A DNA stretch of 64,000 bases from Streptomyces sp. CNH099. Its GTDB lineage: Bacteria > Actinomycetota > Actinomycetes > Streptomycetales > Streptomycetaceae. The stretch is taken from positions 248,001 to 312,000 of the forward strand of contig AZWL01000007.1 in the NCBI GenBank assembly GCA_000514715.1, written 5' to 3'. Below the pieces are notes generated by a model. It was given only the letters and a program-made list of their open reading frames with translations, did no database searches and was not told the origin of the DNA. The position numbers and the translations under genes are program-made. Positions 33,979 through 52,809 of this stretch are shown here, in pieces; the stretch's first letter is position 1, and each line of letters starts with the position of its first letter.

Positions 33979-35478
33979 GTGACGTACCCGCCGCGGGCCG
34001 GCAGCGCCGCGCCGCCGGAGCACCAGACCGCGCCTGCGCTTCCCGCGCAGCCCGGGCCCGACGGCCCACCCGCACCGCAGGCGGGTCCCCCCGGCGCCGC
34101 CGCGCCGCCGCCCCCCGTCGCGCCGCCGGAGCGGCGCTCCGCGTTCACCGAGGGCTTCGAGCGGCTGCGCGCCGCCGCGACCACCGAGCCGGGCCGGCTG
34201 CGGATCATCGGGGCGGTGCTGGCGGCGCTGGTCGTGCTGTTCGGCGCGCTCACCACGTGGCAGGTGTCCGACCGGGCGGCGGCGGCCGAAGACGTCGTCG
34301 AACGCAGCCAGCCGCTGAGCGCGGAAGCCGCCGAGATCTACCGCTCCCTGGCCGACGCCAACACCACCGCGGCCACGGGCTTCCTGGAGGGCGGGCAGGA
34401 GCCGCGCGAGGTGCGCGACCGGTACGACGACGACATCACGCGGGCCTCGGAGCTGCTAGTGCGGGCCGCGGCCAGCTCCCAGGGCGCCGAGGAGTCGCAG
34501 GACCAGATCGAGAAGCTGAACCGGGCGCTGCCCGTCTACACCTCGCTCGTCGAGACCGCCCGCGCCAACAACCGCCAGGGCCTGCCGCTCGGCGGCGCGT
34601 ACCTGCGCTACGCGGACGACCAGATGCGCGAGACGCTGCTGCCCGCCGCCCGCAAGCTGTACAGCTCCGAGACCGCCCAGCTGGAGCAGGACTACTCCGA
34701 CGCCCGGGCGTGGCCCTGGGGCGCGCTGGCCAGCGGACTGGTCGCGCTCGGCGTGCTGTTCTGGGCGCAGCGCCGCCACTACCGCCGGACGAACCGGGTG
34801 TTCAACCACGGCCTGCTGGCGGCCACCGCGGCCACCGCGGTCGTGCTGCTGTGGCTGGCCGTCGGGCACACCTTCGCCCGCTCCGGCCTCGGCGACTCCG
34901 ACCGGCACGGCGCCCAGTCGCTGCACGCGCTCAACGAGGCGCGGATCAACACCCTCACGGCCCGCGCCGACGAGAACCTCACGTACGTCAACCGGGGCTC
35001 CGTCACCAACGAGAAGGGCCTCGACAAGTACGAGGCCACCTACCTCAAGGGCATGAGGGAGCTGGCCGGCAAGGACATCGACGCGGAGACGGCGCCGGCG
35101 GGCAGCATGCTCGGCCGCGCCATGGAACTGGCCGACGACAGCGAGGGCCGCAGGCCCGTCGCCGAGGCCATGGACAACGTGCGCGACTGGCGCCGGATGC
35201 ACGGCGAGGCGCAGGAGAGGAACGTCGCGGGCGAGTACGAGTCCGCGAAGGACATGGTCATCGGCGGCGAGGGGGAGAAGTCGACCAGCGAGTTCTTCGA
35301 CCGGGTCGACGACAGCCTCGTCCAGGCCCTGGAGCACGAGCAGCGGGAGTTCACGTCGGCGGCCGAGGACGGCCGGGGGGCGCTCTCCGGCCTGTGGATC
35401 GGCGCCGCGGTGCTCGCCGTGCTGGGCGCCGTCGGCGCGGTGTTCGGCATCGGCCGCAGGCTCTCGGAGTACCGGTGA
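33979..35478 (+). CDS. glnX: Four-TM sensor protein, GlnX-like (module A), 499 aa
   Basis: A Pro/Ala-rich cytoplasmic N-terminus (about 60 residues) precedes TM1 (75-95), a long helical extracytoplasmic region, TM2 and TM3 near the middle, a second helical domain, and TM4 at the C-terminus (IGAAVLAVLGAVGAVFG). The order sensor - glutamate-type binding protein - PknG kinase equals the mycobacterial glnX-glnH-pknG locus, where GlnX passes amino-acid signals across the membrane. The GTG at 33979 follows GGGGGAGG. It heads a long same-strand gene run. Confidence 0.78.
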   Translation: MTYPPRAGSAAPPEHQTAPALPAQPGPDGPPAPQAGPPGAAAPPPPVAPPERRSAFTEGFERLRAAATTEPGRLRIIGAVLAALVVLFGALTTWQVSDRAAAAEDVVERSQPLSAEAAEIYRSLADANTTAATGFLEGGQEPREVRDRYDDDITRASELLVRAAASSQGAEESQDQIEKLNRALPVYTSLVETARANNRQGLPLGGAYLRYADDQMRETLLPAARKLYSSETAQLEQDYSDARAWPWGALASGLVALGVLFWAQRRHYRRTNRVFNHGLLAATAATAVVLLWLAVGHTFARSGLGDSDRHGAQSLHALNEARINTLTARADENLTYVNRGSVTNEKGLDKYEATYLKGMRELAGKDIDAETAPAGSMLGRAMELADDSEGRRPVAEAMDNVRDWRRMHGEAQERNVAGEYESAKDMVIGGEGEKSTSEFFDRVDDSLVQALEHEQREFTSAAEDGRGALSGLWIGAAVLAVLGAVGAVFGIGRRLSEYR

Positions 35479-36527
35479 CGGCGGAGGGGAAGGCAGCTGT
35501 GCGGACAACACCGAGGACGGCAGCACCGAGGACGGCACCGCCCGGGACGAGGCGGAGCCTGCGCGGCTGGGGCGGCGTGGCCGGGACGGCGGCCGCCGTC
35601 GCGCTGACCGCCGCGCTGCTGCCCGGCCTCGCGGGCGACGTACGGCAGGACCACCCGGCCGCGGCCGGCGACCGCGCCGCCGGCGGCGCGGTGGCGGCGC
35701 AGCCGGCGAAGTCGGCGAAGGCGGGCCAGGAGGAGTGCGAGACGCCGGAGGCGAGCCTGCGGCCGTCCGCGAACGCCACGGGCGACGGCGTCCAGCGCAT
35801 CATCGACCGCGGCCGTCTCATCGCGGGCATCGACCAGAACAGCTACCGGTGGGGCTACCGCAACCCGCTCACCGGCAAGCTGGAGGGCTTCGACATCGAC
35901 CTGGCGCGGGCCATCGCCGGGGAGATCCTCGGCGACGAGTCGAAGGTCACCTTCCGCTCCATCCCCACCAGCGAGCGCATCACGGCGCTGAAGGAGAAGC
36001 AGGTGGACATCGTGGTGCGCACGATGACGATCAACTGCGAGCGCATCGAGGAGGTGGCCTTCTCCACCGAGTACTTCACCGGCGACCAGGCGGTGCTGGC
36101 CCCCGCCGGCTCGGACATCACCGGCTTCGACGAGAGCCTCAAGGGCAAGCGCGTCTGCACCGCCGAGGGCTCCACGGGCGAGGGGGCCCTGGAGGAGGGG
36201 AAGTACGGCGCGGAGGTCAAGCTGGTGCCGAACCAGCTCGACTGCCTGGTGCGGCTGCAGCTCGGCGAGGCCGACGCGGTCGTCACCGACAACGCGCTGG
36301 CGGCCGGCCAGGCCGCGCAGGACCCCTCGACGCGGCTGGTCGGCACCCTGAACCGCCCCGAGCCCTACGGCGTGGCGATGAACATCGACCACCACGACCT
36401 GGTGCGCCGGGTGAACAAGCTGCTTGAGGACTACCGCCAGAACGGCTGGCAAGACGCCTACCAGAAGTGGCTGGCCAAGGACATGCCGGGGATCGACGGG
36501 CCGCCGGCCCCGAAGTACAAGGACTGA
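35475..36527 (+). CDS. glnH: Glutamate-type binding protein, GlnH-like (module A), 350 aa
   Basis: A hydrophobic N-terminal segment (VAGTAAAVALTAALLPGLAG) without a lipobox suggests a signal or anchor. The SBP family 3 core follows: GRLIAGIDQNSYRWGYRNP, GFDIDLARAIAG, VDIVVRTMTINCERIEEV, and a C-terminal WQDAYQKWL. No permease or ATPase is nearby, so this is a sensor rather than a transport subunit. The GTG overlaps the sensor's stop by four bases (GTGA); a later GTG at 35499 with AAGG upstream is an alternative. Confidence 0.88.
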   Translation: MTAEGKAAVRTTPRTAAPRTAPPGTRRSLRGWGGVAGTAAAVALTAALLPGLAGDVRQDHPAAAGDRAAGGAVAAQPAKSAKAGQEECETPEASLRPSANATGDGVQRIIDRGRLIAGIDQNSYRWGYRNPLTGKLEGFDIDLARAIAGEILGDESKVTFRSIPTSERITALKEKQVDIVVRTMTINCERIEEVAFSTEYFTGDQAVLAPAGSDITGFDESLKGKRVCTAEGSTGEGALEEGKYGAEVKLVPNQLDCLVRLQLGEADAVVTDNALAAGQAAQDPSTRLVGTLNRPEPYGVAMNIDHHDLVRRVNKLLEDYRQNGWQDAYQKWLAKDMPGIDGPPAPKYKD

Positions 36528-36584
36528 GCAGGCGCACGAAGCGACACGTCAACGGGCAGAGCACGGCAGCACGGAGGGAAACAG

Positions 36585-37946
36585 ATGCCGCTCCCGCCAC
36601 GGGGCTCGATGGACCGCGAGGAGGTCGATCGTGCGCTTGCGCGGCTGGGAGCCGAGCACGAGGCGATCGAGACCTCGCTGCTCGCGCTCCAGGACCACGC
36701 GGGACGCCGGCTGCTGGAGGGCGCCGAGCTGTCCGGTACGACGAAGGAGCGCTGGGCCGCCGCCGAGCAGGCGATCACGCTGCTGTGGGCGCACTTCGAG
36801 GCGTACACCGGCGCGCTGGCCTCCGCTCGGGAGATCCGCACCCGCCGCCGCTCGCCCGGCGCCGCGGAGCTGGCCGAGCTGACCGCGCTGCTGCGCGACC
36901 ACGGCGTCACCATCGCGCCGGGAGCCGCCTCGTCCCCCGCGGCCGCCGGCGGCTACCCGGCGGCGCTCACGGGCCCGGCCCGGCTGTCGGAGTCGCTGAA
37001 GCTGGACGAGCTGGTGGGGCGGATGAACCGGTGGTACGCGGAGGTGATCGACGTCGTCGCGGCGGCGGACTCCGTGTGGTCGGCGCTGCCCGCGCGCATC
37101 GACCTGCTCGCCGCCGAGCTGCAGCGCACCCGTTCGCTGGCCCAGTCCGTCGGCGTGCGTCCCGGCGAGCACCCGGCGGGCGACGACCTGGAGCGGATCA
37201 CCGCGGAGCTGGCCGCGCTGCGCGACGAGGTGGTGCGCGACCCGCTGGCGTTCTGGTCCCGGCCGGCCGGGCGCAGCCCCGGCGCGGCGCCGGGCGGCGG
37301 GGCGCCGGACACCGCGCGCTACGACGCGGCGGCCCGCGGTCTGGAGGACGTGCGCCGGGAGATCGACGCCGTGCTGCACGTCCGGCAGGACGCGGAGGAG
37401 CGGCTGGTCAAGGTGCGCGACGTGCTGTCGCGCGCGGACCGTACGCTGGGCGAGGCCCGCCGGGCGCGCGGCGAGGTGCTGGCGAAGATAGCGGCGTCGG
37501 AGGTGCCGGCGGTCAGCGGCCCGCCGACCGCGCTGAACGAACAGCTGGCCAACGCGGTGGAGTTCCGCAGGCGGGCCCAGTGGCACCGGCTGTCGCCGCT
37601 GCTGGAGAGCCTGGAGCAGCGGGCCGAGGAGGAGTTGCTGCGGGCGCGGGAGTCGCTGACGGCGGTGACCGCGCCGCTGGCCGTCCGGGCGGAGCTGCGC
37701 GGCCGGCTGGACGCGTACAAGGCGAAGGTGGCGCGGCACGGCTTCGCCGAGGACCGCATCCTGGTGGAGCGGTACGACGTGGCGCGCCGGCTGCTGTGGT
37801 CGGCACCCTGCGATCTGATCGCGGCGGAGCAGGCGGTGCTGCGCTACCAGCGGGCCACGGCGGAGGTGCTGGCCGCCGGGCGGGCGGCACCGCCCTCGCG
37901 CGCACTGCGCGCCGAGGGGGAGGACCGGCCCGGGGGCATGGCGTGA
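36585..37946 (+). CDS. Coiled-coil protein conserved in PknG modules, 453 aa
   Basis: Almost entirely helical with long heptad-rich stretches (LAAELQRTRSLAQS, RLVKVRDVLSRADRTLGEAR, LESLEQRAEEELLRARESL). No signal peptide or membrane helix. I recognise no enzyme motif. Its position between the binding protein and the kinase suggests a cytoplasmic scaffold or kinase substrate. The ATG is preceded by CGGAGGGAAACAG. Confidence 0.75.
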   Translation: MPLPPRGSMDREEVDRALARLGAEHEAIETSLLALQDHAGRRLLEGAELSGTTKERWAAAEQAITLLWAHFEAYTGALASAREIRTRRRSPGAAELAELTALLRDHGVTIAPGAASSPAAAGGYPAALTGPARLSESLKLDELVGRMNRWYAEVIDVVAAADSVWSALPARIDLLAAELQRTRSLAQSVGVRPGEHPAGDDLERITAELAALRDEVVRDPLAFWSRPAGRSPGAAPGGGAPDTARYDAAARGLEDVRREIDAVLHVRQDAEERLVKVRDVLSRADRTLGEARRARGEVLAKIAASEVPAVSGPPTALNEQLANAVEFRRRAQWHRLSPLLESLEQRAEEELLRARESLTAVTAPLAVRAELRGRLDAYKAKVARHGFAEDRILVERYDVARRLLWSAPCDLIAAEQAVLRYQRATAEVLAAGRAAPPSRALRAEGEDRPGGMA

Positions 37947-37974
37947 GGCTGGACGGAACGGAGTTGGGGGAGTC

Positions 37975-40566
37975 ATGAGCAACGCGCAGGCATGTCAGCG
38001 GCCGGGCTGCGGAGGCACGTACGAGGACGTCGGCGGCGGCGAGCTGTACTGCGACACCTGCGGCCTCGCCCCCGTCGTGTCGCCGGACGGCGTCGTCGGC
38101 TCCGCGCCCACCGGGGTGACCGGCCGCGGCCGCGGCAGCCGGGGCAGCTCGTCGAACAGCTCCAGCGCGTCGAGCCGGTCGAGCAGCACGTCCCGGAGCA
38201 GTTCGCGGGCGTCGCGCCGGTCGGTCTCCGGGCGGCTGTCGCGCGCGCTGACCGGGGAGTCCACGGGCCGCTCGGTCTCGGTCAAGAGTTCCCGTACGTC
38301 CGCGGTCGCCTCCCGCGGCAAGCTGGGCGCGGGCCTGGTGTCGGTGCCGGAGGTGCCGCGGCCCGACCCGCGCACCGCGGTGCTGGAGAACCCCGAGGTG
38401 CCCGAGCGCAAGCGGTACTGCAGCCGCAGCGACTGCGGGGCGCCGGTGGGCCGGTCGCGCGGCGGCCGGCCGGGGCGTACCGAGGGCTTCTGCACCAAGT
38501 GCGGGCAGCCGTACTCCTTCGTGCCGAAGCTGCAGGAGGGCGACATCGTCCACGGGCAGTACCAGGTCGCGGGCTGCCTCGCGCACGGCGGCCTGGGCTG
38601 GATCTACCTGGCGATCGACCGCGCGGTCGCCGACCGCTGGGTGGTGCTCAAGGGCCTGCTGAACACCGGCGACGAGGACGCGATCGCCGCCGCGGTCTCC
38701 GAGCGCCGCTTCCTCGCGGAGATCGAGCACGCGGGCATCGTGCGCATCTACAACTTCGTCGAGCACCTCGACCAGCGCACCGGCAGCCTCGACGGCTACA
38801 TCGTCATGGAGTACGTCGGCGGCAAGTCGATGAAGGAGATCGCCAACGAGCGGCGCACGCCGGACGGCAAGCGGGACCCGCTGCCGGTCGAGGTGGCGTG
38901 CGCGTACGGGATCGAGGCGCTGGAGGCGCTCGGCCACCTGCACAGCCGCAACCTGCTGTACTGCGACTTCAAGGTCGACAACGCGATCCAGCAGGGCGAC
39001 CAGCTCAAGCTGATCGACATGGGCGCGGTGCGCCGCATGGACGACGACGAGTCGGCCATCTTCGGCACCGTCGGCTACCAGGCCCCGGAGGTCGCCGACG
39101 TCGGCCCGTCCGTCGCCTCCGACCTGTACACGGTGGCCCGCACGCTGGCCGTGCTGACCTTCGACTTCCAGGGCTACACCAACGTCTTCGTCGACAGCCT
39201 GCCCGACCCCGACTCGATCGACGTCTTCAACCGGTACGAGTCCTTCTACCGCCTGCTGGTCCGCGCCACCGACCCCGACCCGGCCCGGCGGTTCGCCTCG
39301 GCCGCGGAGATGTCCGAGCAGCTGACGGGCGTGCTGCGGGAGGTCGTGGCGGTGCAGACGGGCAAGCCGCAGCCGGCGCTGTCCACGCTCTTCGGGCCGG
39401 AGCTGCGGGTGGTGGACACCGAGCTGTTCCCGCCGGCGACCGGCGAGACCTCGCAGCTGGGCGCCCGGGTGGTCGGCAAGCGCGCCCGCGCGGCGCGGGC
39501 CGCGGGCAACGGCGCCCCGGCGCTGCCGGCCGCCCAGGGCGTGCCGGCGCAGCTGCCGGGCGGCGCGCAGGGGATGGGCACGCAGGTGGCGCTGCCCGCG
39601 CAGATCGCCGACACGCTGCCGCTGGACTCCGCCGCGGCGGCGCTGGCGCTGCCGGTGCCGCGGGTGAACCCGAACGACCCCAACGCGGGCTTCCTCGCGG
39701 GCCTGCTGGCGTCCGCGCCGGCGGAGCTGACCGCCGCGCTGTCCAACGCGCCGACCGACTCCGTCGAGCTGCAGCTGCGCCGGGTGCGCGCCCATCTGGA
39801 GCTGGGCGACCTGGCGGCGACCGGCTCGGCGCTGGGCGAGCTGGGCGAGCAGCACCCCGACGACTGGCGGATCGTCTGGTACCGGGGGCTGCAGGCGCTG
39901 GCCACCCGCGACTTCGAGACCGCCGCGCTGTCGTTCGACGCGATCTACGACGCCTTCCCCGGCGAGCCCGCGCCGAAGCTGGCGCTGGGCATCTGCGCCG
40001 AGGTGCTGGGCCAGCTGGACAACGCCACCGAGTACTACCGGCTGGTGTGGACGACCGACCCGGCCTACGTCAGCGCCGCGTTCGGCCTGGCCCGGGTGCG
40101 GCTCGCCGCCGCCGACCGGTCCGGTGCGGTACGGGCGCTGGAGTCCGTACCGGAGGCGTCGATCCACTACACCGCGGCGCGCATCGCCGCGATCAGAGCG
40201 CGGCTGCGCCAGCGCGCGCCGCAGGAGCCGCTGCTGACCGATCTGCAGGCCGCCGGCACGCAGGTGGAGCGGCTGCAGGACGTGGGTCTGGACGCCGGCC
40301 GCCGGGCGAGGCTGTCCACCGAGGTACTGGGCAGTGCGTTGGACTGGGTGCTGACCGGCCGCACCGGGGCCGGTGCGGGTCCGTCCGGCCCGGCGGGCTC
40401 CTACGGCACGCTGCAGCCGCTGCTGGGCTGCGCGCTGGACGAGAACGGACTGCGGCTCGGTCTGGAAAACTCCTTCCGCGTGCTGGCCCGGCTCGCACAG
40501 CACGGCCACGAGCGGATCGACATGGTCGAACGGGCCAACCGCTACCGGCCGAAGACCTGGGTATGA
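37975..40566 (+). CDS. pknG: PknG-type Ser/Thr protein kinase (module A), 863 aa
   Basis: An N-terminal zinc ribbon (Cys7, 12, 26, 29) is followed by a Ser/Arg-rich stretch (about 55-115), a rubredoxin-like knuckle (Cys149, 154, 173, 176), and a kinase domain with Lys226 in VVLKGL, catalytic YCDFK (Asp331, Lys333, Asn336) and DMG (Asp348). The rest is TPR-like, as in mycobacterial PknG. The ATG overlaps nothing but follows GGGGGAGTC. PknG kinases phosphorylate FHA proteins to control glutamate and 2-oxoglutarate metabolism; an FHA protein is encoded three genes downstream. It is paired here with a PP2C phosphatase. Confidence 0.93.
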   Translation: MSNAQACQRPGCGGTYEDVGGGELYCDTCGLAPVVSPDGVVGSAPTGVTGRGRGSRGSSSNSSSASSRSSSTSRSSSRASRRSVSGRLSRALTGESTGRSVSVKSSRTSAVASRGKLGAGLVSVPEVPRPDPRTAVLENPEVPERKRYCSRSDCGAPVGRSRGGRPGRTEGFCTKCGQPYSFVPKLQEGDIVHGQYQVAGCLAHGGLGWIYLAIDRAVADRWVVLKGLLNTGDEDAIAAAVSERRFLAEIEHAGIVRIYNFVEHLDQRTGSLDGYIVMEYVGGKSMKEIANERRTPDGKRDPLPVEVACAYGIEALEALGHLHSRNLLYCDFKVDNAIQQGDQLKLIDMGAVRRMDDDESAIFGTVGYQAPEVADVGPSVASDLYTVARTLAVLTFDFQGYTNVFVDSLPDPDSIDVFNRYESFYRLLVRATDPDPARRFASAAEMSEQLTGVLREVVAVQTGKPQPALSTLFGPELRVVDTELFPPATGETSQLGARVVGKRARAARAAGNGAPALPAAQGVPAQLPGGAQGMGTQVALPAQIADTLPLDSAAAALALPVPRVNPNDPNAGFLAGLLASAPAELTAALSNAPTDSVELQLRRVRAHLELGDLAATGSALGELGEQHPDDWRIVWYRGLQALATRDFETAALSFDAIYDAFPGEPAPKLALGICAEVLGQLDNATEYYRLVWTTDPAYVSAAFGLARVRLAAADRSGAVRALESVPEASIHYTAARIAAIRARLRQRAPQEPLLTDLQAAGTQVERLQDVGLDAGRRARLSTEVLGSALDWVLTGRTGAGAGPSGPAGSYGTLQPLLGCALDENGLRLGLENSFRVLARLAQHGHERIDMVERANRYRPKTWV

Positions 40567-40577
40567 GAGGACAGCCC

Positions 40578-41987
40578 ATGGCGAACACACCTCCCGTATC
40601 CCAGCTGAGCGCGTGCCCCTCGTGCGAGGAGCCGCTGGAGGCGGGCGACCTGTTCTGCGGGGCGTGCGGTGCGGATCTCGCCGCGCCGGCGCCCGCGCCG
40701 GCTGCGGCCGCGGGTTCAGCCGCGGCCGCCGAGCCCGCGGCCGGGCCGAACGGGGCCGGACCCGCGCCCGCGGCGCCGCCGGCGGGCGCCGGCGACGCGG
40801 CCCCGGCCGCGCCCGCGGCCGGTCCGGTGGCCGGGCCGGACAGCCGGTCACCGGAGGCGCAGCGCACCGGCAGCTACCGCATCGCCGGGCCCGGGGACGG
40901 GCCGCAGGCCGCCGGCGACACCGGCGAGTACCTGCTCGACGCGCCCGAGGAGGACCCCGAGCACTACCGCCTCGCCGAGCCGGTGGCGCCGCAGGGCGCC
41001 GACCCGCGGGCGGCGCTGGGCACCGCCGCCCCGGACGCACCGGACACCCGGGCCGCCGAACCCGCCGCCGGGCCGGTGCCGTCCGGGCGGCGCTGCATCG
41101 CCTGCCGTACGGGGGCGATCGACACCGACGGGTACTGCGAGCGCTGCGGCCACGCGCAGCCGCGCGAGCGGGACCACATGGAGCGGGAGACGGACGGCGT
41201 CGCCGCGGTCAGCGACCGGGGCCTGCGCCACCACCGCAACGAGGACTTCTTCGCCATCGCCGGGGCGGCGCTGCCCAACGGCGCGCCCGCGACCGTCGCG
41301 GTCGTCTGCGACGGCGTGTCCTCCGCCAGCCGCCCGGACGAGGCCTCCGCCGCCGCGAGTTCGGCCGCGGGCACGTCGCTGCAGGCCGGGCTGGGCCGCG
41401 GGCTGCACCCGCAGCAGGCGATGCACGAGGCGCTGCTGGCCGCCGCGGGCGCGGTCAACGAGCTGGCCGCGCAGCACTCGCCGCTCAGCCACCAGAACGC
41501 CCCGGCCTGCACGATCGTCAGCGCGGTGATCGCCGGCGGCATCCTGACCGTCGGCTGGGTCGGCGACTCGCGCGCGTACTGGGTGCCGGAGGACCGCGCC
41601 GCACCCTCCGCCCGGCTCACCGAGGACGACTCGTGGGCGGCGCAGATGGTCGCCGCCGGGCTGATGAACGAGGCCGACGCGTACGCCGACGAGCGCGCGC
41701 ACGCGATCACCGGCTGGCTGGGCGCGGACGCGCACGAACTCGACCCGCACACGGCCTCGTTCAAGCCGGACGGCCCGGGCGTGGTGATCGTGTGCACCGA
41801 CGGCCTGTGGAACTACGCCGAGGCGGCGGCCGAACTGGCCGCCGCGGTGCCGCCGGACGCCGCGGCCCGGCCGCTGCACGCGGCCCAGGTGCTCGTCGGC
41901 CACGCGCTGGACGGCGGCGGCCACGACAACGTAACAGTGGCGGTACTCCCGTTCCCCGGCCCGGCGGGCGGGGCAGGCCCTTCCTGA
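40578..41987 (+). CDS. PP2C-type protein phosphatase with zinc ribbons (module A), 469 aa
   Basis: Two four-cysteine ribbons (CPSC ... CGAC at 13-30, and CIAC ... CERC near 170-190) flank a Pro/Ala-rich linker. The PP2C domain has all metal-binding motifs: SDRGLRHHRNEDFF, VVCDGVSS, WVGDSRAYW, CTDGLWNY, GGHDNVTV. It should reverse phosphorylation set by the preceding kinase. The ATG at 40578 has GAGAGG seven bases upstream; an in-frame ATG at 40563 overlaps the kinase stop (ATGA) and would add five residues. Confidence 0.93.
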   Translation: MANTPPVSQLSACPSCEEPLEAGDLFCGACGADLAAPAPAPAAAAGSAAAAEPAAGPNGAGPAPAAPPAGAGDAAPAAPAAGPVAGPDSRSPEAQRTGSYRIAGPGDGPQAAGDTGEYLLDAPEEDPEHYRLAEPVAPQGADPRAALGTAAPDAPDTRAAEPAAGPVPSGRRCIACRTGAIDTDGYCERCGHAQPRERDHMERETDGVAAVSDRGLRHHRNEDFFAIAGAALPNGAPATVAVVCDGVSSASRPDEASAAASSAAGTSLQAGLGRGLHPQQAMHEALLAAAGAVNELAAQHSPLSHQNAPACTIVSAVIAGGILTVGWVGDSRAYWVPEDRAAPSARLTEDDSWAAQMVAAGLMNEADAYADERAHAITGWLGADAHELDPHTASFKPDGPGVVIVCTDGLWNYAEAAAELAAAVPPDAAARPLHAAQVLVGHALDGGGHDNVTVAVLPFPGPAGGAGPS

Positions 41988-42060
41988 TGGAAGGGGGACG
42001 CGGGGTGGCCTGACCGCCACGGGGGGCGGCGCAAGGTACGTGTTCAGCCTCTCTTGCCCG

Positions 42061-42090
42061 ATGAATTGTCTACATAGATCTAAATACCAT
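42061..42090 (+). promoter_or_regulatory. AT-rich segment, possible internal promoter before the VWA gene
   Basis: The 30 bases before the VWA ribosome binding site hold the run CATAGATCTAAATACC, among the AT-richest in the window, with TTGTCT just upstream. The -35/-10 spacing is not canonical, so the exact boxes are unsure. It could start a separate VWA-FHA transcript. Confidence 0.3.
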
Positions 42091-42107
42091 CAGTGGGAGG
42101 GGACGAG

Positions 42108-43463: not shown

Positions 43464-43491
43464 CGAGAGCGAGACAGGGGGATCCACCGAG

Positions 43492-44484: not shown

Positions 44485-44573
44485 CCGCCCGCTCCCCCTG
44501 CACAACCGCACCACCCGCACCACCCGGCCGACCCGGTGCCGCGTCGTTCCGACCCGGCCGGCCGAGGCGCTGT

Positions 44574-44595
44574 CGTACGGACCCCATCCCGTACG
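44574..44595. terminator. Convergent terminator hairpin between FHA and Trypco2-like genes
   Basis: CGTACGG-accccatc-CCGTACG is a perfect 7-bp stem with an 8-base loop, placed between two convergent genes. Confidence 0.5.
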
Positions 44596-44648
44596 CCACC
44601 GCCGCCCCCGGCGCCACCCGCCGCCACCGCCGCCTCAGCGCCGAGGCG

Positions 44649-44954
44649 TCAGCGGCCGATCGGCCGCTCCCCGGCCGCGCCGTGCGGCACCAGCTCCAGC
44701 TGCATCCGGTGCGTGCCCACCCGGGTCGCGGACCCGCCGGCGCCCGCCTCCACCACCCCGAACCGCAGCGACAGCCGCCCCTCGCCCGTACGGTGCAGCT
44801 CCATCGCGAACTCCAGGCTCACCCGGTCCACCCGGAACCGCCAGGCGCCGTCGCCCCGCTCCCCCTCCCGCTCCGCCTGCGCCAGCTCCCGCCGCACCTC
44901 GGCGATCGCGTCCGCCAGTCCCACCAGCTCGTCGTTCCGCGCCTCGTGTCCCAT
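44649..44954 (-). CDS. Trypco2-like (trypsin co-occurring) small protein, 101 aa
   Basis: The N-terminus LADAIAEVRRELAQAERE is a helix; the rest is beta-rich (RFRVDRVSLEFAMELHRTGEG, SLRFGVVEAGAGG, THRMQLELVPHG). This layout matches the small domain known as trypsin-co-occurring domain 2, recognised by context next to trypsin-like proteases. It is divergent from exactly such a protease. Its role is unknown; it may present or activate the protease. The ATG has GAGGGGG upstream. Starts beyond 44954 are not credible. Confidence 0.75.
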   Translation of the reverse strand: MGHEARNDELVGLADAIAEVRRELAQAEREGERGDGAWRFRVDRVSLEFAMELHRTGEGRLSLRFGVVEAGAGGSATRVGTHRMQLELVPHGAAGERPIGR

Positions 44955-45033: not shown

Positions 45034-45041
45034 CACCCGTC

Positions 45042-46394
45042 ATGGGGGACCGGGCTGACGCGGACGGCACCGGCTGGCGGCTGCGGCTGCGCGACGGCCG
45101 CGGCATCCGCGGCGCGGGCGTCCTCATCGCCCCGGACCGGGCCCTGACCGCCGCGCACGTGCTGCCGCACGCCGACGCCGAGCTGATCGTCGACTACGCC
45201 GACTACCCGGGCGCGGAGCCCGCCCGCGCCCGTGCGCTGCCCGGCTGCGTCAAGCCCCGCAGCGCGGACCCCGCCGACGGCGACGTCGCGCTGCTGTCCG
45301 TCTACCCGCCGCGCGCGGGGGTGCGCCCGGTGCCGCTGCGCGGCGTCCCCCGCTACACCGGCTGGACCGTGCGCATGGGCGGCTTCCCCCGCGGCCGGGA
45401 CCAGGGATTATGGGTGCGGGCCCGGGTGGAAGGACCGTACGGCGCCTGGTGGCAGCTGACCCCGGAGGTCCCGGCGTACGTCGCGACCGAGGGCTTCAGC
45501 GGCACCGCGGTCGCGGGCGCCCAGCTGGAGGAGGTCTCGGCCCAGCCGCCGCCGGAGCTGCTCGGCCTGGTCGTCAGCCGGTTCTACGACGACCGCCGGG
45601 AGCCCGGGTTCGAGCAGCGGCACGCGTACATGATCCCGCTGGACCGGATCGCGGAGCTGCTGCCGGAGGTGCGCCGGCTCATGGACGGCCCGCCGCCGCA
45701 CGACGCCGCGCTGTCCGCCGTCGCGCCGGAGCGGTCCGGCGCCGGGGCCGACCCCGCGTTCGCCGCGCGGATCGCCGCGTGGGCCGCGGGCTCCGGGCCG
45801 GCGGTGCTGCTCGCCGACGCCGCCGCGGGCTCCCCGTACGACCTCGCCTTCGTCGCCGGGCTGCGCCGCACCGGCGTCGCGGTGGACGCCGCCGGGCGGA
45901 CCGCCGACGGCCTGGCCCGCGCGCTGGGCGAGCGGCTGCGGCTGCCGGAGCCGTACGGCGGCGACGTCACCGCCTGGCTGCGCGGCGCCGGCCCGCGGCC
46001 CGCCCGCCGCGACTCCGGCCGGCGGCTCGACCTGCCGGTCGCCGTCGCCGTGGCCGGGGCAGACGCGTCGGCGGAACCGGCGGCGGCGGTGGCGGTGCTG
46101 CGGCGGCTGGCGGAGCTGGACGCCCGGCTGCTCGTCGTCTTCCGCCGGCCCGGCGGCCCGGCCCGCGAGGCGGCGGAACGGCTGGTGGAGTGCCCGGCGC
46201 TGCGCCGTTACGCCCGTGGTCTTGTGCGCCGGGTGATCGCGCTGGAGCGCGGCCGGCCGGCGCGGTCCCGGGTGGCCAACAGGCGCAACAGCGCGCTCAC
46301 CGCGCACCGCTGCGACCGCCACCCGGTGGCGGAGCTGCGTGCCCTGGTCGACGGGCTGCACGCCGACCTCGCCCGGCTGGAGAGCCCCCCATGA
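45042..46394 (+). CDS. Trypsin-like serine peptidase with unknown C-terminal domain (module B), 450 aa
   Basis: The trypsin-like triad is intact: His39 in LTAAHVLP, Asp81 in DGDVALLSV, Ser153 in GFSGTAV. There is no signal peptide, so it is cytoplasmic, unlike most trypsins. Residues about 230-450 form an unknown alpha/beta domain (LLADAAAGSPYDLAFVAGLR ... LLVVFRRPGGPAREAAE) of Rossmann-like look. Such proteases are found in actinobacterial conflict or signalling systems with Trypco2 partners. The stop overlaps the next kinase's start (ATGA), so both are made together. Confidence 0.85.
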   Translation: MGDRADADGTGWRLRLRDGRGIRGAGVLIAPDRALTAAHVLPHADAELIVDYADYPGAEPARARALPGCVKPRSADPADGDVALLSVYPPRAGVRPVPLRGVPRYTGWTVRMGGFPRGRDQGLWVRARVEGPYGAWWQLTPEVPAYVATEGFSGTAVAGAQLEEVSAQPPPELLGLVVSRFYDDRREPGFEQRHAYMIPLDRIAELLPEVRRLMDGPPPHDAALSAVAPERSGAGADPAFAARIAAWAAGSGPAVLLADAAAGSPYDLAFVAGLRRTGVAVDAAGRTADGLARALGERLRLPEPYGGDVTAWLRGAGPRPARRDSGRRLDLPVAVAVAGADASAEPAAAVAVLRRLAELDARLLVVFRRPGGPAREAAERLVECPALRRYARGLVRRVIALERGRPARSRVANRRNSALTAHRCDRHPVAELRALVDGLHADLARLESPP

Positions 46395-48982
46395 CACCAG
46401 TGACAGAACCGGCCCCGGCCGCGCCGCCGGCCCGCTGCCCCCACCGCAGGTACTCCGGCGCCGACTGCGCCGGCGAGCTGCTGGCCGCGGGCTACTGCGG
46501 GCGCTGCGGCCGGCACCGCGACCAGCCGCCGCTGCCCGAGCCGGACGGCGGCCCGGCCAGGCCGCTGGTGCTGCCGGAGCTGCCCGCGGACGACGCGTAC
46601 GACTCGGTGCTCCCGGAGAACGCGCCGCTGGCGTACGGCAAGCGCTGCGGCAACAAGGCGTGCGGCGCGCTGCTGGCGCCGCCGCTGGTGGAGCCGCCGG
46701 TGCCGAACGAGGGCCACTGCCCGGCGTGCGGCCACCGCTACTCGTTCGTGCCGCGGCTGCGCGAGGGCGACATGCTCGGCCAGTACCGGGTGCGCGGCTG
46801 CCTGGCGCACGGCGGCCAGGGCTGGGTGCACCTCGCCGAGAACACCCGCCTCGACGACACCCAGGTGGCGGTCAAGGAGCTGCTGAACCGGCACGACGAG
46901 CAGCTGGCCGAGCTGGCCGAGAGCGAGCGCCGCTACCTCATCGCGCTCGACCACCCCGACATCGTGCGGATCCTCGACTACCTGCGCGAGGAGCGGGGCG
47001 GGGCCGAGCAGCCGATGACCTACATCGTCATGGAGTACGTCGGCAGCAACACCCTGGAGAAGATCGTCGCGGAGGTGCGCCGCGGCCGGCGCGGGCTCGA
47101 CATCGAGGAGGTCGCCACCTACGGCTGCCGGATCCTCGACGCGCTGGACCACCTGCACCGGCGTACGGACCCGATCGGGCCGCTGGCGTACTGCGACATG
47201 AAGCCCTCCAACGTCATCCACTACCGGGACGGCCTCAAGGTCATCGACCTCGGCGGGGTACGCCGCATCGGCGAGCGCACCGCGCCCGCGCTCACCGAGG
47301 GCTTCGCCGCCCCCGAGACCGGCCGCACCGGCCCGACCGTCGCGCACGACCTGCACACCGTCGGCCGGACGCTGGAGGAGCTGGCCCGCTTCGCCGCCAC
47401 CCGCGACATCCCCGGCACCGGCATCGCCTCCTTCCGGCACGCGGTGCGGTGCGCCACGGCACCGGAGCCGGGCGACCGGTTCGCCTCCGCCGCCGAGATG
47501 AGCGAGCAGCTGCGCGGTGTGCTGCGGGAGATCCGGGCGCTGCGCGACAAGCGGGACCGGCCGGAGCCCTCCGCCCTGTTCGAGCCGACGCGGCGGCTGC
47601 TGGACGCCGGGCTCGGCACGCTGCCGCCGCTGAGCCGCTGGCTGGCCCGGCAGCCGCCGCGGCGCGGCGCGCGGCCGGTGTCGGAGCCGCTGGACGTGGG
47701 GCCGCCGCGGGCGGGCGACGTGGCGCTGGCGCTGCCGGTGCCGGTGCCGCACCCGCAGGACGGGCTGCGCAGCCTGTTCCGGCTGTCGACGTACGACCCG
47801 GACCGGAAGCTGTCCCAGCGGCCGGGCGAGCCGTCCGCCGAGGTCTGCTTCCACAACGTGCGGCTGTTCCTGCGGGACTCGCCCGCGCCCGCGCCGGCGA
47901 AGGCGGCGGCGGAGCTGGCCGAGGCGCGGCGGATCCTGGCCGGCAGCCCGCACCGGGCCTGGCAGCTCCGGTGGTACGAGGGACTGCTCGCCCTGGTCCG
48001 CGCACAGGCCGCCGCGGACGACACCGGTACGGACGAGGCCGATGCGGGCGGGACCGCCACCCCCGCGGGTGAGACGGACGCGGACGACGCCGGGTCACCC
48101 GAAGCGGCGGCGCTGAGCCGGGCGTACGACCACTTCGCGGCGGTCTACCGGCGGCTGCCCGGCGAGTACGCGCCCAAGCTGGCGCTCGGCTACTGCGCCG
48201 AGCGGCTGGCCGCCGCCGACCGGCCCGCGGCGGCGGGCGGGCGCACCCCGGAGGAGCTGCGCCGGATCGCGACGGACCACTACCTCGCCGTCTGGTCGCG
48301 CAACCGCATGCAGGGCAACGGCGCCTTCGGCCTGGCCCGGCTCGCGCTCGCCCGCGGCAGCCGGCGGGACGCGGTGGAGGTGCTGCGCAAGGTGCCGGAG
48401 GACTCCCCCGACAGGTTCGCCGCGCGGATCGCCGCCCTGCGCATCTCGGCCGCGCGGCTGGAGCGGGGGGACCCGGAGCTGCCGACGCTGCGGGAGATCG
48501 GCGCGGCCCGCAGCGAGCTGGCCGCCCCCGCGGACACCGCGCGCCCCGCGCACCCCGCGGACGGCACGCCGCTGCAGCTGGCGCAGGAGCACGGGCTGCT
48601 GCTGGAGGCGGAGTTCCTGGAGTGGGCGCTCGACCTGGTCACGGGGCCGGGCGCGCACGGCCCGCGCGGCCCGCACGGCACCGCGGATCCGGGCGTGCCG
48701 GACGGTACGGAGGGTGCGGACGGCACGGGCGGCGGTGCCGGGCGCGGCGACGGCTTCCCGTACGACCGGCTGCTCGGCGAGCCCTACGTCCCGCGCGGCG
48801 GAGAACGCCCCCTGCCCCGCGTCGCCCCGTTCCGCCGATCCGCCGGGCGCGACTCCCCCGAGTGGCACATCCGGCTGCTGCTCGCGGCCTGCTACCGGAA
48901 GCTGTCCCGGCACTGCCGGGACGACGACCGCGCCAAGCTCGTCGAGCTGCACAACGCGGTCCGCCCGCCCACCGTCGCCTGA
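46391..48982 (+). CDS. Second PknG-type Ser/Thr kinase (module B), 863 aa
   Basis: The layout mirrors the module A kinase: cysteine knuckles (Cys16, 26, 36, 39; then 86, 91, 110, 113), YSFVPRLREGDMLGQYRVRG, kinase motifs Lys162 in VAVKELL, YCDMK (Asp269, Lys271, Asn274), and DLG (Asp286), then a TPR-like C-terminus with a low-complexity Gly/Asp insert near 750. All catalytic residues are present. The two kinases are both 863 residues and share CLAHGG, SERR, SAAEMSEQL and LPVP landmarks, pointing to an old duplication. It has no neighbouring FHA protein or phosphatase. The start overlaps the protease stop by four bases. Confidence 0.93.
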   Translation: MTPVTEPAPAAPPARCPHRRYSGADCAGELLAAGYCGRCGRHRDQPPLPEPDGGPARPLVLPELPADDAYDSVLPENAPLAYGKRCGNKACGALLAPPLVEPPVPNEGHCPACGHRYSFVPRLREGDMLGQYRVRGCLAHGGQGWVHLAENTRLDDTQVAVKELLNRHDEQLAELAESERRYLIALDHPDIVRILDYLREERGGAEQPMTYIVMEYVGSNTLEKIVAEVRRGRRGLDIEEVATYGCRILDALDHLHRRTDPIGPLAYCDMKPSNVIHYRDGLKVIDLGGVRRIGERTAPALTEGFAAPETGRTGPTVAHDLHTVGRTLEELARFAATRDIPGTGIASFRHAVRCATAPEPGDRFASAAEMSEQLRGVLREIRALRDKRDRPEPSALFEPTRRLLDAGLGTLPPLSRWLARQPPRRGARPVSEPLDVGPPRAGDVALALPVPVPHPQDGLRSLFRLSTYDPDRKLSQRPGEPSAEVCFHNVRLFLRDSPAPAPAKAAAELAEARRILAGSPHRAWQLRWYEGLLALVRAQAAADDTGTDEADAGGTATPAGETDADDAGSPEAAALSRAYDHFAAVYRRLPGEYAPKLALGYCAERLAAADRPAAAGGRTPEELRRIATDHYLAVWSRNRMQGNGAFGLARLALARGSRRDAVEVLRKVPEDSPDRFAARIAALRISAARLERGDPELPTLREIGAARSELAAPADTARPAHPADGTPLQLAQEHGLLLEAEFLEWALDLVTGPGAHGPRGPHGTADPGVPDGTEGADGTGGGAGRGDGFPYDRLLGEPYVPRGGERPLPRVAPFRRSAGRDSPEWHIRLLLAACYRKLSRHCRDDDRAKLVELHNAVRPPTVA

Positions 48983-49007
48983 CCCGCCCGACTGGAGGCG
49001 AACCCCG

Positions 49008-50531
49008 ATGGACACGCTGCGGTTCGGCGTCACCCTCGCGGACGCCGCGGAGGCGCGCCACCGGCTGCGCGCCGACGTGGCCGCGCACACCGTGGACACC
49101 ACCGTGGAGGTCACCGCCGAGGCCGCGGGCGGGCCGGTCCCGGCGCCCGCCGACACCGGAGTCATCGTGGCGCTCGACTTCGCGCCGGACCGGCTGGCCG
49201 AGACCCGGCGCGCGGTCGCCGCCGCGATCGCCGCGCTGCCCGACGGCGCGTCGTTCGCGGTGCTGCACGGCGGCGGCGCACCGCGGATCCGGTACCCGTA
49301 CGGCAGGAGCGAGGTGTGGGCGCGCGCGGACGACATGAACCGGAGCATGGCGCGGTTCGAGGCGGCGCAGATGGTGCCCGCCGACGCCGCGACCGCCGCG
49401 GGCGGCGGACCCGGCGGCTACGCCGGCTGGCTCGACGCGGCCCGCGCGCACCTCGTCCGCGAGCCGCGGCGGATCGCCCACCTGCTCATGATCACCGACG
49501 GCCGCGGCCACGACGACGGCCGCCTCGACGCCGCGATCGACGCCTGCGTCGGCGAGTTGACGTGCGACGTCATCGGGGTGGGCGGCGACTGGGAGCCGGA
49601 GCTGCCGGCCCGCATCGCGACCCGGCTGCACGGCAGGGCCGAGCTGGCCGAGGGCGCCGGGCCGCTCGCCGATCGGCTCGCGGAGATCACCGGCCGGCTG
49701 CGGTCGACCCGGGTGCCGGCGGTGCCGGTCGAGGTGCGGCTGCGGGCCGGGGTGACGCTGCTGTCGTTCCGCGAGGCGGCCCCGGTCAGCCGGGAGCTGC
49801 GGCCCGACCCGCGGCCGGCGGCCGCGGACCCGTGGCGCCACGTCTTCACCACCCGGCTGTGGGACGCCGGCGTCCGCCGCTACATCCTGTCGGTCGAGGC
49901 CCGCCCGGACGGCGACCCCGCGACCGGGCGGGACGCCGACCCGCTCGACACCGACCTGCTGCTGGCCCAGATCGCGCTGGGGCCGGGGCGCGCGGCGCCG
50001 CCGGAGCGGACGGCGGCGGAGCGGACGGCGGCGGAAGGGGCGGTGGCGACGGTACGGGTGCGCTGGTCGTACTCCGGCCCGGGCACCCACCCGCCCCCCG
50101 GCGGCCCGCGGACCCGCGGCGCCAGCGCCACGTACCGCATGCGCGACCGGCTGGCCGACGCCTTCAACGCGGGCTGCACCGCCGTCTCCCGCCGCGACCT
50201 GCGCACGGCGGAGGCCATGCTCGGCGAGGCGGCGCGGCTCGCGTACGAGCTGCAGGACCGGGACTTCCTCGACCACGACCTGAACCGCATCGCCGAGGTG
50301 CTGGACGCGCGCAACGGCGTCGTACGGGTACGGGACGGCGCCACCGTCGACCGGACGGCGCTGCTGCGCAGCCGGCTGTCGCGCGGGCAGCACCGGCCGC
50401 TGGACCTCCCCCCGCCGGCCCCGGCCGGCGTCCCCTGCCCCGCCCCGGCCTGCGGCCGGCTCTCCACCGCCGCCGCCGGCTTCTGCGTCGCCTGCGGCAC
50501 CCGGCTGGCGACCGCCGGGAGACCGCGGTGA
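49008..50531 (+). CDS. VWA-like protein with degenerate MIDAS and C-terminal zinc ribbon (module B), 507 aa
   Basis: The VWA fold is recognisable (GVIVALDFAPDRLAE, LLMITDGRGHDDG, CDVIGVGGDWEPELPARIA), but the metal motif DxSxS has become DFAPD at residues 57-61, so two serine ligands are lost. TDG is kept. A TPR-like helical part and a zinc ribbon (CPAPACG ... CVACG) follow. It matches the module A VWA protein in layout. The ATG has TGGAGG upstream. Its stop overlaps the next GTG by four bases. Confidence 0.85.
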   Translation: MDTLRFGVTLADAAEARHRLRADVAAHTVDTTVEVTAEAAGGPVPAPADTGVIVALDFAPDRLAETRRAVAAAIAALPDGASFAVLHGGGAPRIRYPYGRSEVWARADDMNRSMARFEAAQMVPADAATAAGGGPGGYAGWLDAARAHLVREPRRIAHLLMITDGRGHDDGRLDAAIDACVGELTCDVIGVGGDWEPELPARIATRLHGRAELAEGAGPLADRLAEITGRLRSTRVPAVPVEVRLRAGVTLLSFREAAPVSRELRPDPRPAAADPWRHVFTTRLWDAGVRRYILSVEARPDGDPATGRDADPLDTDLLLAQIALGPGRAAPPERTAAERTAAEGAVATVRVRWSYSGPGTHPPPGGPRTRGASATYRMRDRLADAFNAGCTAVSRRDLRTAEAMLGEAARLAYELQDRDFLDHDLNRIAEVLDARNGVVRVRDGATVDRTALLRSRLSRGQHRPLDLPPPAPAGVPCPAPACGRLSTAAAGFCVACGTRLATAGRPR

Positions 50532-51514
50532 GCGCGCGGCTGCGGCGGCTGGTCCGCGCGCTGCTGTTCCCGCAGACCGTCAAGTACCGGCTGCTGCGGC
50601 ACCTGACCGCGGTGCTGGTACTCGGCGCGGTCGCGAGCACGGCGCTGCTCGTGTCGTACGACAGGGTGCACCGGGTGCCCGCGGAGCTGCAGGCGGACGC
50701 GGTGCTCGCGGTGCAGGACGCGGTGGCGTTCCGCAGGGCGCTGGTGCAGGCGGACGGGCACGTGCACCGCGCGTACGTGGACGGCCTCATGGACACCGTC
50801 GGCCCCGGCGAGGGCTACCAGCAGCAGAGCGGCGCCGCCCGCCAGGCGCTGTCGCGGCTGTCCGACCGGCAGATCGAGGGCGACGACGGCCGCCGGGTCG
50901 TCGAGGTGCTGAACGTCCTCCACAACTCGTACCAGGAGGCCGTGTCCGAGGCCGCCTACCAGCGGGGCCCGGAGAACCGGCTGATGCGGGAGCAGAACCT
51001 CCGCGAGGCCGAGACGGTGCTGCGGCGGGAGCTGACGGGCATCCTCCCGCGGCTCGCCGAACTCCAGCGCGACCAGCTCGCGACCATCAAGGACGAGACG
51101 GACGTGAGCGCCGCCGAGAAGGCGGGCTGGTCGGTCGCTGTGGCGGCGCTGCTGGTGCTGGCGCTCGTGCTGGTGCGGTGCTGGCTGGTGCTGTGGCGGT
51201 ACTGCGGGCGGCTGTTCAGCGGCGGGCTGGCCGTCGCGCTCGTGCTCGTCGGCGTCCTCGTCGCGGCGCCGCTCGCGGCGGCGTACGACACCCAGCACAA
51301 GCTGGACGCGGTGCACACCGCCCTGGTGCGCGTCGACCGGGCAGACGGGCAGGGGCCCATCGACGCCGGCGCCACGACGGTGCGCGACACCATCGCGTCC
51401 ACCTCGACGGCCGCCCGCGCCCTGCCGTGGCTGGCGGCGGGCTGCGGCGCGGCCGTCGTCTGCGCCGCGGGCGGCCTGCTCTGGCGGCTGTACGACGACT
51501 ACGGGAGGGACTAG
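50528..51514 (+). CDS. Four-TM membrane sensor-like protein (module B), 328 aa
   Basis: TM1 (about residues 27-45), a long helical extracytoplasmic loop, TM2 and TM3 close together in the middle (VAVAALLVLALVLVRCWLVL, LAVALVLVGVLVAAPLAAA), and TM4 near the end. Topology and position match the GlnX-like sensor of module A, though direct sequence similarity is weak by eye. The GTG overlaps the VWA stop (GTGA). Probably transmits a ligand signal from the next gene's binding protein. Confidence 0.75.
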   Translation: MSARLRRLVRALLFPQTVKYRLLRHLTAVLVLGAVASTALLVSYDRVHRVPAELQADAVLAVQDAVAFRRALVQADGHVHRAYVDGLMDTVGPGEGYQQQSGAARQALSRLSDRQIEGDDGRRVVEVLNVLHNSYQEAVSEAAYQRGPENRLMREQNLREAETVLRRELTGILPRLAELQRDQLATIKDETDVSAAEKAGWSVAVAALLVLALVLVRCWLVLWRYCGRLFSGGLAVALVLVGVLVAAPLAAAYDTQHKLDAVHTALVRVDRADGQGPIDAGATTVRDTIASTSTAARALPWLAAGCGAAVVCAAGGLLWRLYDDYGRD

Positions 51515-51516
51515 CC

Positions 51517-52809
51517 GTGCTCCGGATCTCCCCGCTCCCCCCGCTGCGCCGGGCTCTCGCTGCGGCGGCCGCGGCGACTGTGCTCGCCGGCTGCGTCGGC
51601 GGCCAGGCGCCCGTCGACGAGACGGCGGACCGCCCGGTCACGGTGCTCGGGCCGTGGACCGGCACGCAGGCGGAGACCTTCGAACGCGTACTGGCGAGCG
51701 AGGACTTCGACTACGTCTACCAGGGCACCGCCGCCCAGCGGGAGGTGCTGCTCTCCCAGGTGCAGGCCGGCACCCCGCCCGACATCGTGATCATGCCCGG
51801 CGTGGGCGAGCTGTCGGAGTACGCCGCCGACGGCCTGCTGGAGCCGCTCGACGGGCGGGGCCTGTACGAGCCCGCCCACTACGGCGCGCCGTGGACGCCG
51901 CGGGCCACCGGGAAGTCCGGCAGGCACGTGTACTGGGTGCCGGTGCGGGCGGCGCTGAAGAGCATCGTCTGGTACCGGGCGGCGAACGGCAGGCCCGCGT
52001 CCGTCGGGGCGCGGGAGTGGTGCGTCGGCCTGGGCGACGACGGCGCCGCCGGCTGGCCGGCCAGCGACTGGATCGAGGACCTGCTGCTGCAGACCGCCGG
52101 GCCGCGGACGTACGCCCGCTGGGCGCGCGGCGAGCTGGGGTGGACGGCGGAGCCGGTGGTACGGGCCTGGCGGGCGTGGGGCTCGCTGATGAAGGCGGAC
52201 GGGCCGGGGCCGCCGCGGTGGGCGCTGCTCAACGACCACCGGGGCGCCGCCGGCGAGCGGGGGCTGCTGTTCGGCGGCCGGGCGGAGACCGACGAGCGGT
52301 GCGTGGCGGAGCACCAGGGCTCGTTCGCCCTCGACCTGTACGGGGACGCCGCCGGCCGGGCGGAGTACGCGCCGTCGACCCCGTACCTGCCGGGCACGAC
52401 GGCGCCGCGCGGGCGGGAGGTGAGCGGGGACTTCGCGGCGCTCTTCGACGACCGGGACAAGGCGCGGGAGGTGTTCCGGTTCCTCGCCTCCCGGGAGGGT
52501 CAGTGGTTCTGGGCCTCTTTGTCCGGGGCGTCGGGGTCGTCGGTGTACAGCGCCAACTCCGCGATCGGGGCGCCGTGGCCGGAGGACCCGGTGACGCGCC
52601 GGATAGCCCGCGACCTCAACGACACCTCCGTGCCGCGCTGCCTGGACGCCTCCGACGTGATGCCGCCCGCGGTGCGCGACGCGTTCTACGACGCCGCGAT
52701 GCAGTACCTCGCCGCCGACGGCCGCGACCCGCTGCCGTGGCTGCGCGACATCCAGCTGGTGCACGACCACGAGAAGCGGCGACCGTGGATGACGGACGTC
52801 TGCGGCTGA
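51517..52809 (+). CDS. Solute-binding lipoprotein (module B), 430 aa
   Basis: A signal peptide with lipobox LAGC (Cys near residue 27) precedes a family 1 solute-binding fold (RPVTVLGPWTGTQAETFERV, QAGTPPDIVIMPGVGELSEY, YWVPVRAALKSIVWYR). No permease or ATPase follows, so it likely senses rather than transports. It replaces the glutamate-type (family 3) protein of module A with a sugar/oligopeptide type. The GTG follows GGGAGG three bases after the preceding stop. Confidence 0.85.
   Translation: MLRISPLPPLRRALAAAAAATVLAGCVGGQAPVDETADRPVTVLGPWTGTQAETFERVLASEDFDYVYQGTAAQREVLLSQVQAGTPPDIVIMPGVGELSEYAADGLLEPLDGRGLYEPAHYGAPWTPRATGKSGRHVYWVPVRAALKSIVWYRAANGRPASVGAREWCVGLGDDGAAGWPASDWIEDLLLQTAGPRTYARWARGELGWTAEPVVRAWRAWGSLMKADGPGPPRWALLNDHRGAAGERGLLFGGRAETDERCVAEHQGSFALDLYGDAAGRAEYAPSTPYLPGTTAPRGREVSGDFAALFDDRDKAREVFRFLASREGQWFWASLSGASGSSVYSANSAIGAPWPEDPVTRRIARDLNDTSVPRCLDASDVMPPAVRDAFYDAAMQYLAADGRDPLPWLRDIQLVHDHEKRRPWMTDVCG

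Follow-up and report, generated by a model that had tools for sequence, protein, structure and literature searches.

A 64,000-nucleotide stretch of Streptomyces sp. CNH099 (contig AZWL01000007.1, positions 248,001 to 312,000; hereafter the window), from an 8.1 Mb, high-GC genome, carries two adjacent gene sets that each contain a PknG-type kinase, here termed module A (33979–44484) and module B (45042–52809). Module B forms a family by itself. We read it, with a probability of roughly 55%, as a separate and old lineage of the PknG-type pathway that usually has a protease as its output, and in which a ligand would act through a binding protein (B5), a membrane sensor (B4) and the TPR domain of the kinase (B2) on a complex of B2 with a trypsin-like protease (B1). 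Module A, with seven genes, represents GlnX–GlnH–PknG in its streptomycete form. Both modules are real and lie where an earlier interpretation made without database searches (the sequence-only reading) had placed them; it had counted eleven genes on one strand, and there are twelve on the + strand plus one divergent gene. Gaps within each set are at most 120 bases and several genes overlap by 4 bases, an operon-like arrangement, and the whole genome contains only two PknG_TPR matches.

A PknG-type kinase set with a protease

Module B comprises, in order on the + strand, genes for a trypsin-like protease, a PknG-like kinase, a VWA protein, a GlnX-like sensor and an SBP_bac_1 protein. The protease B1 (45042–46394, 450 residues; Trypsin_2 35.1 bits, cut-off 27.6) was modelled with AlphaFold from 47 sequences (mean predicted local distance difference test score, pLDDT, 87.3) as a domain of the HtrA/DegS type, then an alpha/beta part and finally helices, with matches in the PDB to, for example, Rv3671c, DegS and HtrA1. 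The alpha/beta C-terminal part folded alone gave no significant PDB match (best E 0.38, weakly AAA+-like). The cytoplasmic location that the sequence-only reading assigned to this protease agrees with a simple scan, which found no hydrophobic segment. The kinase B2 (46391–48982, 863 residues; Pkinase 71.2 bits, PknG_TPR 79.7 bits against a cut-off of 27) overlaps B1 by 4 bases. Divergent from the protease gene is the one gene that had been noticed and left unnamed, which encodes Trypco2 (trypsin-co-occurring domain 2; 44649–44954, − strand, 101 residues; PF19631 80.5 bits, E 1e-22, cut-off 24.2), a domain present in three copies in this genome.

This gene set is not a product of chance, as scores of loci show the same order. 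When 392 genomes of the same genus were screened with a B-type TPR profile, four candidates being scored in each, at least 115 matches above 300 bits were obtained, in at least 114 genomes; A-type kinases score mostly 195–270 bits on this profile, and matches of 270–298 bits were left unassigned. Among 396 genomes sampled across the phylum, two exceeded 300 bits, both of the same genus and one of them the window's own. Searching named genomes for the B5 family recovered at least 525 confirmed relatives, the best 80 of which include Actinacidiphila, Streptosporangium, Amycolatopsis and Kutzneria; the same-genus and named-genome samples share species and do not count as independent. At those of the best 80 loci longer than 14 kb (n=63), the kinase was found in 62, the sensor in 62, the VWA protein in 46, the protease in 45 and, with a loose profile, Trypco2 in 23. 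The order of protease, kinase, VWA protein, sensor and binding protein is thus conserved across species and genera. Closer study was devoted to 120 loci (L041–L060 and L081–L180), consisting of 110 B-type loci, six module A loci (L046–L051) and four with distant kinases (L055–L058); five of the 115 matches above 300 bits, the window's own and four others, lie outside this set.

The protease gene lies directly upstream of the kinase gene on the same strand in 74 of the 110 B-type loci, and in a further 11 the two form a single reading frame; four loci are interrupted by a contig end. Two of the fusions (L052 and L054) were scanned with Pfam, and each holds Trypsin_2, Pkinase and PknG_TPR in one frame. 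The protease is likewise present at all four loci with distant kinases, one of them belonging to a different family within the order. In a tree of 131 kinases the protease occurs in each deep branch other than that of module A, and the 11 fusions form one clade. The catalytic triad is kept almost without exception (His 87/87, Asp 87/87, Ser 86/87), and the catalytic residues of the kinase are largely retained (beta-3 Lys 113/116, catalytic Asp 114/116 and DFG Asp 114/116, the remainder being gaps). The four cysteine columns of the rubredoxin domain are Cys in 74–75 of the 116 aligned kinases, B2 included.

Trypco2 tracks the protease. With a strict profile, used for these counts because looser ones were polluted by antisense GC-rich frames, a divergent Trypco2 gene was found at 32 of 78 loci with a separate protease (the four distant ones included), at 11 of 11 fusions and at 0 of 21 protease-less loci. 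Clustering of the reading frames ahead of the protease gave a largest cluster present at 41 of 88 loci (both strands, one place), taken as Trypco2 by position and number, and a next cluster of 14. The unfiltered version of this clustering was used, since filtering for coding frames was too coarse (VWA 56, sensor 35, Trypco2 15 and binding protein 0 of 89).

B4 (50528–51514, 328 residues) is a GlnX-like sensor with four membrane segments (NF058618 54.3 bits, E 1e-14); of its outer stretches, the first is retained and the second comprises only about 48 residues. B-type sensors in general are short (median 322 residues, counted from near the match start), and a simple scan finds four hydrophobic segments in 82 of 109. 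B5 (51517–52809, 430 residues; SBP_bac_1 32.6 bits) has a lipobox-like start, judged by eye, and is 82–83% identical to its counterparts in Streptomyces aculeolatus and S. phytophilus; 108 of 109 B-type binding proteins have an anchor-like membrane start, and 56 of these are also lipobox-like by a loose test. It had been described as a sugar-type binding protein, and the match to SBP_bac_1/8 holds, ‘sugar-type’ being merely a family label. No transporter was found as a regular neighbour: downstream of the binding-protein gene the largest frame cluster in unfiltered clustering covers 15 of 84 loci, and the binding protein therefore looks like a sensor rather than part of a transporter. Behind this gene, on the opposite strand, nine module loci show a second, weak trypsin-like match (24 bits in L042 and L112).

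B3 (49008–50531, 507 residues; VWA_3 27.8 bits, cut-off 27) is a VWA protein with a degenerate metal-site motif, DxSxS having been lost, and with a zinc-ribbon-like set of cysteines at its C-terminus (by eye). It belongs to one VWA subgroup without DxSxS (L041, L126–L138 and B3 itself); the first Ser is replaced by Ala in 27 of 81 proteins, all 81 of which retain the later Asp.

Proposed mechanism and alternatives

Module B is probably a ligand-controlled proteolysis switch. A ligand would bind to anchored B5, which would act on the outer part of B4, and the inner part of B4 would engage the TPR domain of B2. The latter two steps are proposed by analogy with GlnH–GlnX–PknG, for which passages in three papers describe the proposal that GlnX acts on the PknG TPR domain (PMC6069109, PMC9769921, PMC8546545). 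B1 and B2 may form one complex, and the kinase–protease fusions suggest that they act in one place. Phosphorylation of B1, Trypco2 or the VWA protein would then turn proteolysis on or off, with Trypco2 as a putative dedicated partner of the protease. That kinase signalling controls proteolysis was already part of the sequence-only reading. The conserved gene order and the fusions at 11 of 110 loci bear out a tie between a PknG-family kinase set and a protease, and both the sensor and the TPR domain are homologous to those of the known pathway; the direction of control is inferred.

Several results weigh against this proposal. The rubredoxin match of B2 reaches 23.3 bits, under the Pfam cut-off of 28.5, and B4 lies under the GlnX cut-off (54.3 versus 250 bits), so that it is homologous to GlnX and outside the curated family. 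At 21 of the 110 B-type loci, each with more than 3.5 kb covered upstream, kinase, sensor and binding protein are present and the protease is missing; the core may therefore have another output. Clustering of these 21 loci yielded no alternative conserved effector, only kinase, sensor, binding protein and antisense frames. Three-gene modules of kinase, sensor and binding protein, lacking protease, VWA protein and Trypco2, are seen at L059, L060, L081–L089, L092–L097, L099, L114, L117 and L119. Trypco2 is present at 43 of 89 protease loci, below half. Twelve of 116 aligned kinases, the fusions L052 and L054 included, have Ser in place of the catalytic-loop Lys, so that the activity of fused kinases may be reduced or altered; this slightly lowers our confidence in the proposal. 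Finally, the search for a candidate phosphorylation site in the protease found no Ser or Thr conserved beyond the trypsin domain.

An alternative concerns the role of the module rather than its wiring and is compatible with the proposed switch: module B could be a conflict or programmed-death system in which extracellular cues arm a cytoplasmic protease of the trypsin–Trypco2 type. Trypco2 is known beside trypsin-like proteases from such systems, as described in parts of PMC7159879. The distribution of the module is patchy (at least 114 of 392 genomes of the genus), and module A appears dispensable, B occurring without an A-type VWA protein in three genomes. The proteases also diverge quickly, being 26–38% identical to B1 (closest 69%; some rows come from other genera), versus 72–75% within the genus for A3, the coiled-coil protein of module A. 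A conflict or cell-fate role is thus possible, given that Trypco2 tracks the protease and that the distribution is patchy and fast-diverging. Against it, the sensor is of a nutrient-sensing kind, none of 30 genomes has a listed AAA_3 match (PF07726, MoxR-type) closer than 100 kb to the B kinase, the nearest lying approximately 170 kb away, and the PADLOC matches are limited to kinase models (PD-T4-6, mad6 and PglW), which recognise the kinase domains of A4 and B2. The kind of sensor and the lack of a nearby MoxR-type gene favour a sensing role of another sort, and on balance we regard the conflict role as rather unlikely.

Control might also run in the reverse direction, with the protease trimming the kinase or the sensor, either to terminate the signal or to activate it irreversibly, and with a kinase substrate that is not linked to the module. 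The same gene set and fusions would be expected, the core persists without the protease at 21 of 110 loci, and the loss of the catalytic-loop Lys in 12 of 116 kinases, fusions included, might be expected of a kinase part that is the regulated partner. However, trypsin–Trypco2 pairs elsewhere are described in parts of PMC7159879 as signalling or release parts, and the protease is found in each deep branch outside module A. Reverse control is in our judgement improbable, and a kinase that would switch the protease is the preferred reading.

Module A and the relationship of the two modules

Module A consists, in order on the + strand, of genes for GlnX, an SBP_bac_3 protein, a coiled-coil protein, PknG, a PP2C-type phosphatase, a VWA protein and an FHA protein. 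A1 (33979–35478, 499 residues) is a membrane sensor that meets the GlnX subfamily model NF058618 (491.5 bits, curated cut-off 250) and falls below the stricter equivalog model NF041460 (198.9 bits, cut-off 780). It shares the operon with PknG, as does the GlnH-like binding protein A2 (35475–36527, 350 residues; SBP_bac_3 89.6 bits). The coiled-coil protein A3 (36585–37946, 453 residues) precedes the kinase A4 (37975–40566, 863 residues), whose rubredoxin, kinase and TPR domains all exceed their Pfam cut-offs (PknG_rubred 106, Pkinase 76.5 and PknG_TPR 296 bits). A5 (40563–41987, 474 residues; PP2C_2 40 bits) is a PP2C-type phosphatase with zinc ribbons, A6 (42108–43463, with an alternative earlier open start at 42093; VWA_3_C 80.3 and VWA_3 35.9 bits) is the VWA protein, and A7 (43492–44484, 330 residues; FHA 52.5 bits) combines a zinc ribbon with FHA.

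The parallel that the sequence-only reading drew between the modules is borne out in part. Each has a VWA protein, a GlnX-like membrane sensor, a kinase with a TPR tail and a binding protein, which matches SBP_bac_3 in module A and SBP_bac_1/8 in module B, and the phosphatase and the FHA protein are confined to module A. Of the four transmembrane segments ascribed to both sensors, a simple hydropathy scan finds four in B4 and three in A1. Both kinases do have 863 residues, counted from ATG starts; homologues vary in length, and the equality looks like chance. The protease was thought to replace the phosphatase and the FHA protein, but it occupies the position of the coiled-coil gene of module A, with which its family shares a C-terminal domain. 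A profile of the protease family also matches within A3 (37380–37871), the C-terminal domains of the two families align with a probability of 98.8% (hhalign, E 9e-17), and a profile of the A3 C-terminus matches 26 of 47 proteases and 0 of 47 shuffled sequences. B1 itself is a short form that retains at most the start of this domain. The gene directly upstream of the kinase is therefore related in both modules, and in module B its front part encodes a protease. Descent of both modules from one ancestral operon would be the simplest reading.

Over 772 aligned positions A4 shares 36% identity with B2; the kinase domains share 48% and the TPR cores 52%. A maximum-likelihood analysis of 31 kinases unites the 16 A-type rows, drawn from the same genus, from another family of the order and from L068, read as a mycobacterial-type PknG, in one clade (100/100), and B2 lies outside it with the B-type kinases. 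Long branches (B2, L041, L055, L068 and others) leave the inner order on the B side unsure. A quick tree of 131 kinases again gave the A clade (0.999), with one deep fork on the B side unsupported. L068 joins the A clade in both trees (100/100 and 0.999) and B2 is outside the PknG orthologue clade in each; a local duplication is not supported. An ancient common ancestor of modules A and B is likely.

The gene order around the modules bears on why they are neighbours here. In 17 of 17 other module A loci a bacterial globin homologue lies behind the FHA gene, on the same strand and 68 to 2598 bases away; these are loci of the same genus with sequence present behind FHA (L046–L051, L061–L065, L074–L077, L079 and L080), L072 ending before FHA and module A loci of another family being left out, and the larger gaps may accommodate a gene. 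The globin, as a neighbour of module A, has a possible functional link to the PknG operon. In the window the globin gene is at 55640–56260, separated from FHA by approximately 11.2 kb; the distance is 10.0 kb in genome G071 (L168) and 13.7 kb in S. aculeolatus (L181). The intervening DNA in all three carries Trypco2, module B and a pair of ABC-2 transporter genes. A block was thus inserted, or the gene order otherwise altered, in this small group, and judged by gene order the adjacency of A and B is secondary. No word of 12 or more bases is shared between the edges of the block (44401–44760 and 55501–55760); there is one 11-base inverted word.

Within the stretch covered around each B kinase, and the shared domain aside, module A genes are near the B kinase at one of 110 B-type loci (L168) and one of 80 named loci (L181), and of 16 genomes chosen for the comparison three (G364, G411 and G238) carry module B and lack an orthologue of the A-type VWA protein. 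An origin of module B by recent or tandem duplication of module A was considered and is ruled out by the trees and by the globin–FHA gene order. That module B is a duplicated branch of A with phosphatase and FHA protein exchanged for the protease, as the sequence-only reading held, is accordingly very improbable: kinase, VWA protein, sensor and the C-terminal domain of the coiled-coil and protease genes do correspond by homology, and the binding proteins by role, but both kinase trees, the position of the B block between FHA and globin, the rarity of A genes near B and the occurrence of B without A all stand against it.

Within the same block, an ABC-2 exporter pair and a luciferase-like monooxygenase trail module B (52871–55624). 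The ABC ATPase behind module B scores 490–499 bits in L168 and L181 and at most 112 bits elsewhere, and the monooxygenase was not found behind module B in L168 or L181. A close relative (G208:C1:2382752-2387987; A6 VWA 95% identical) has only partial matches to the B kinase and VWA genes; its kinase match, approximately 2 kb behind the A VWA gene, is perhaps the remnant of a module B that has decayed at this site.

Relation to known systems and significance

PknG has been studied as a metabolic kinase with FHA substrates, and TerY-P triads are sets of a kinase, a PP2C phosphatase and a vWA protein. Module B resembles GlnX–GlnH–PknG of mycobacteria and Corynebacterium glutamicum in combining a PknG-type kinase with a TPR tail, a GlnX-type sensor and a binding protein in one operon. 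It differs from that system in its binding-protein family, its shortened sensor, its VWA protein, protease and Trypco2, and its lack of an FHA gene, and its kinases are a separate lineage. Actinobacterial sets of a kinase, PP2C and a stand-alone vWA protein, covered in parts of PMC7159879, show the combination seen in module A, which adds GlnX, a binding protein, an FHA protein and the coiled-coil protein.

The output side of module B is closest to the trypsin–Trypco2 conflict systems, in which, according to parts of Kaur et al. 2020 (PMC7159879), a trypsin-like protease lies beside Trypco2 with a vWA protein nearby. Parts of the same work state that trypsin domains in the effector position of VMAP systems are nearly always inactive (PMC7159879), whereas the proteases of module B keep their triad and are associated with a PknG-type kinase, a GlnX-like sensor and a binding protein. 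Module B shares with the VMAP/MoxR-vWA ternary systems a trypsin-like protease with a Trypco2 neighbour and, unlike them, has no MoxR-type gene within 100 kb of its kinase (30 genomes). Ser/Thr kinases linked to or fused with binding proteins, such as MSMEG_1200, S. griseus SGR_4432 and S. coelicolor SCO1468, share the kinase–binding protein linkage of module B, and the passages of PMC6069109 that describe them mention neither a protease nor Trypco2. No description of a PknG–protease module was found in the literature searched, which comprised open-licence full texts only and so is not proof of absence. The parts are known; their combination was not found in that literature.

If the proposal is correct, the GlnX–PknG input device would also drive proteolysis, in a sister lineage whose protease partner has conserved catalytic residues and is sometimes part of the same polypeptide, and the trypsin–Trypco2 pairs of conflict systems would gain a testable input in the form of an outside ligand. 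Module B is a defined accessory gene set that is open to testing in laboratory Streptomyces. More tentatively, and at somewhat less than even odds, it may represent a widespread actinobacterial ligand-gated kinase–protease switch that places conflict effectors on a nutrient-sensing chassis, perhaps for cell-fate decisions in mycelial bacteria.

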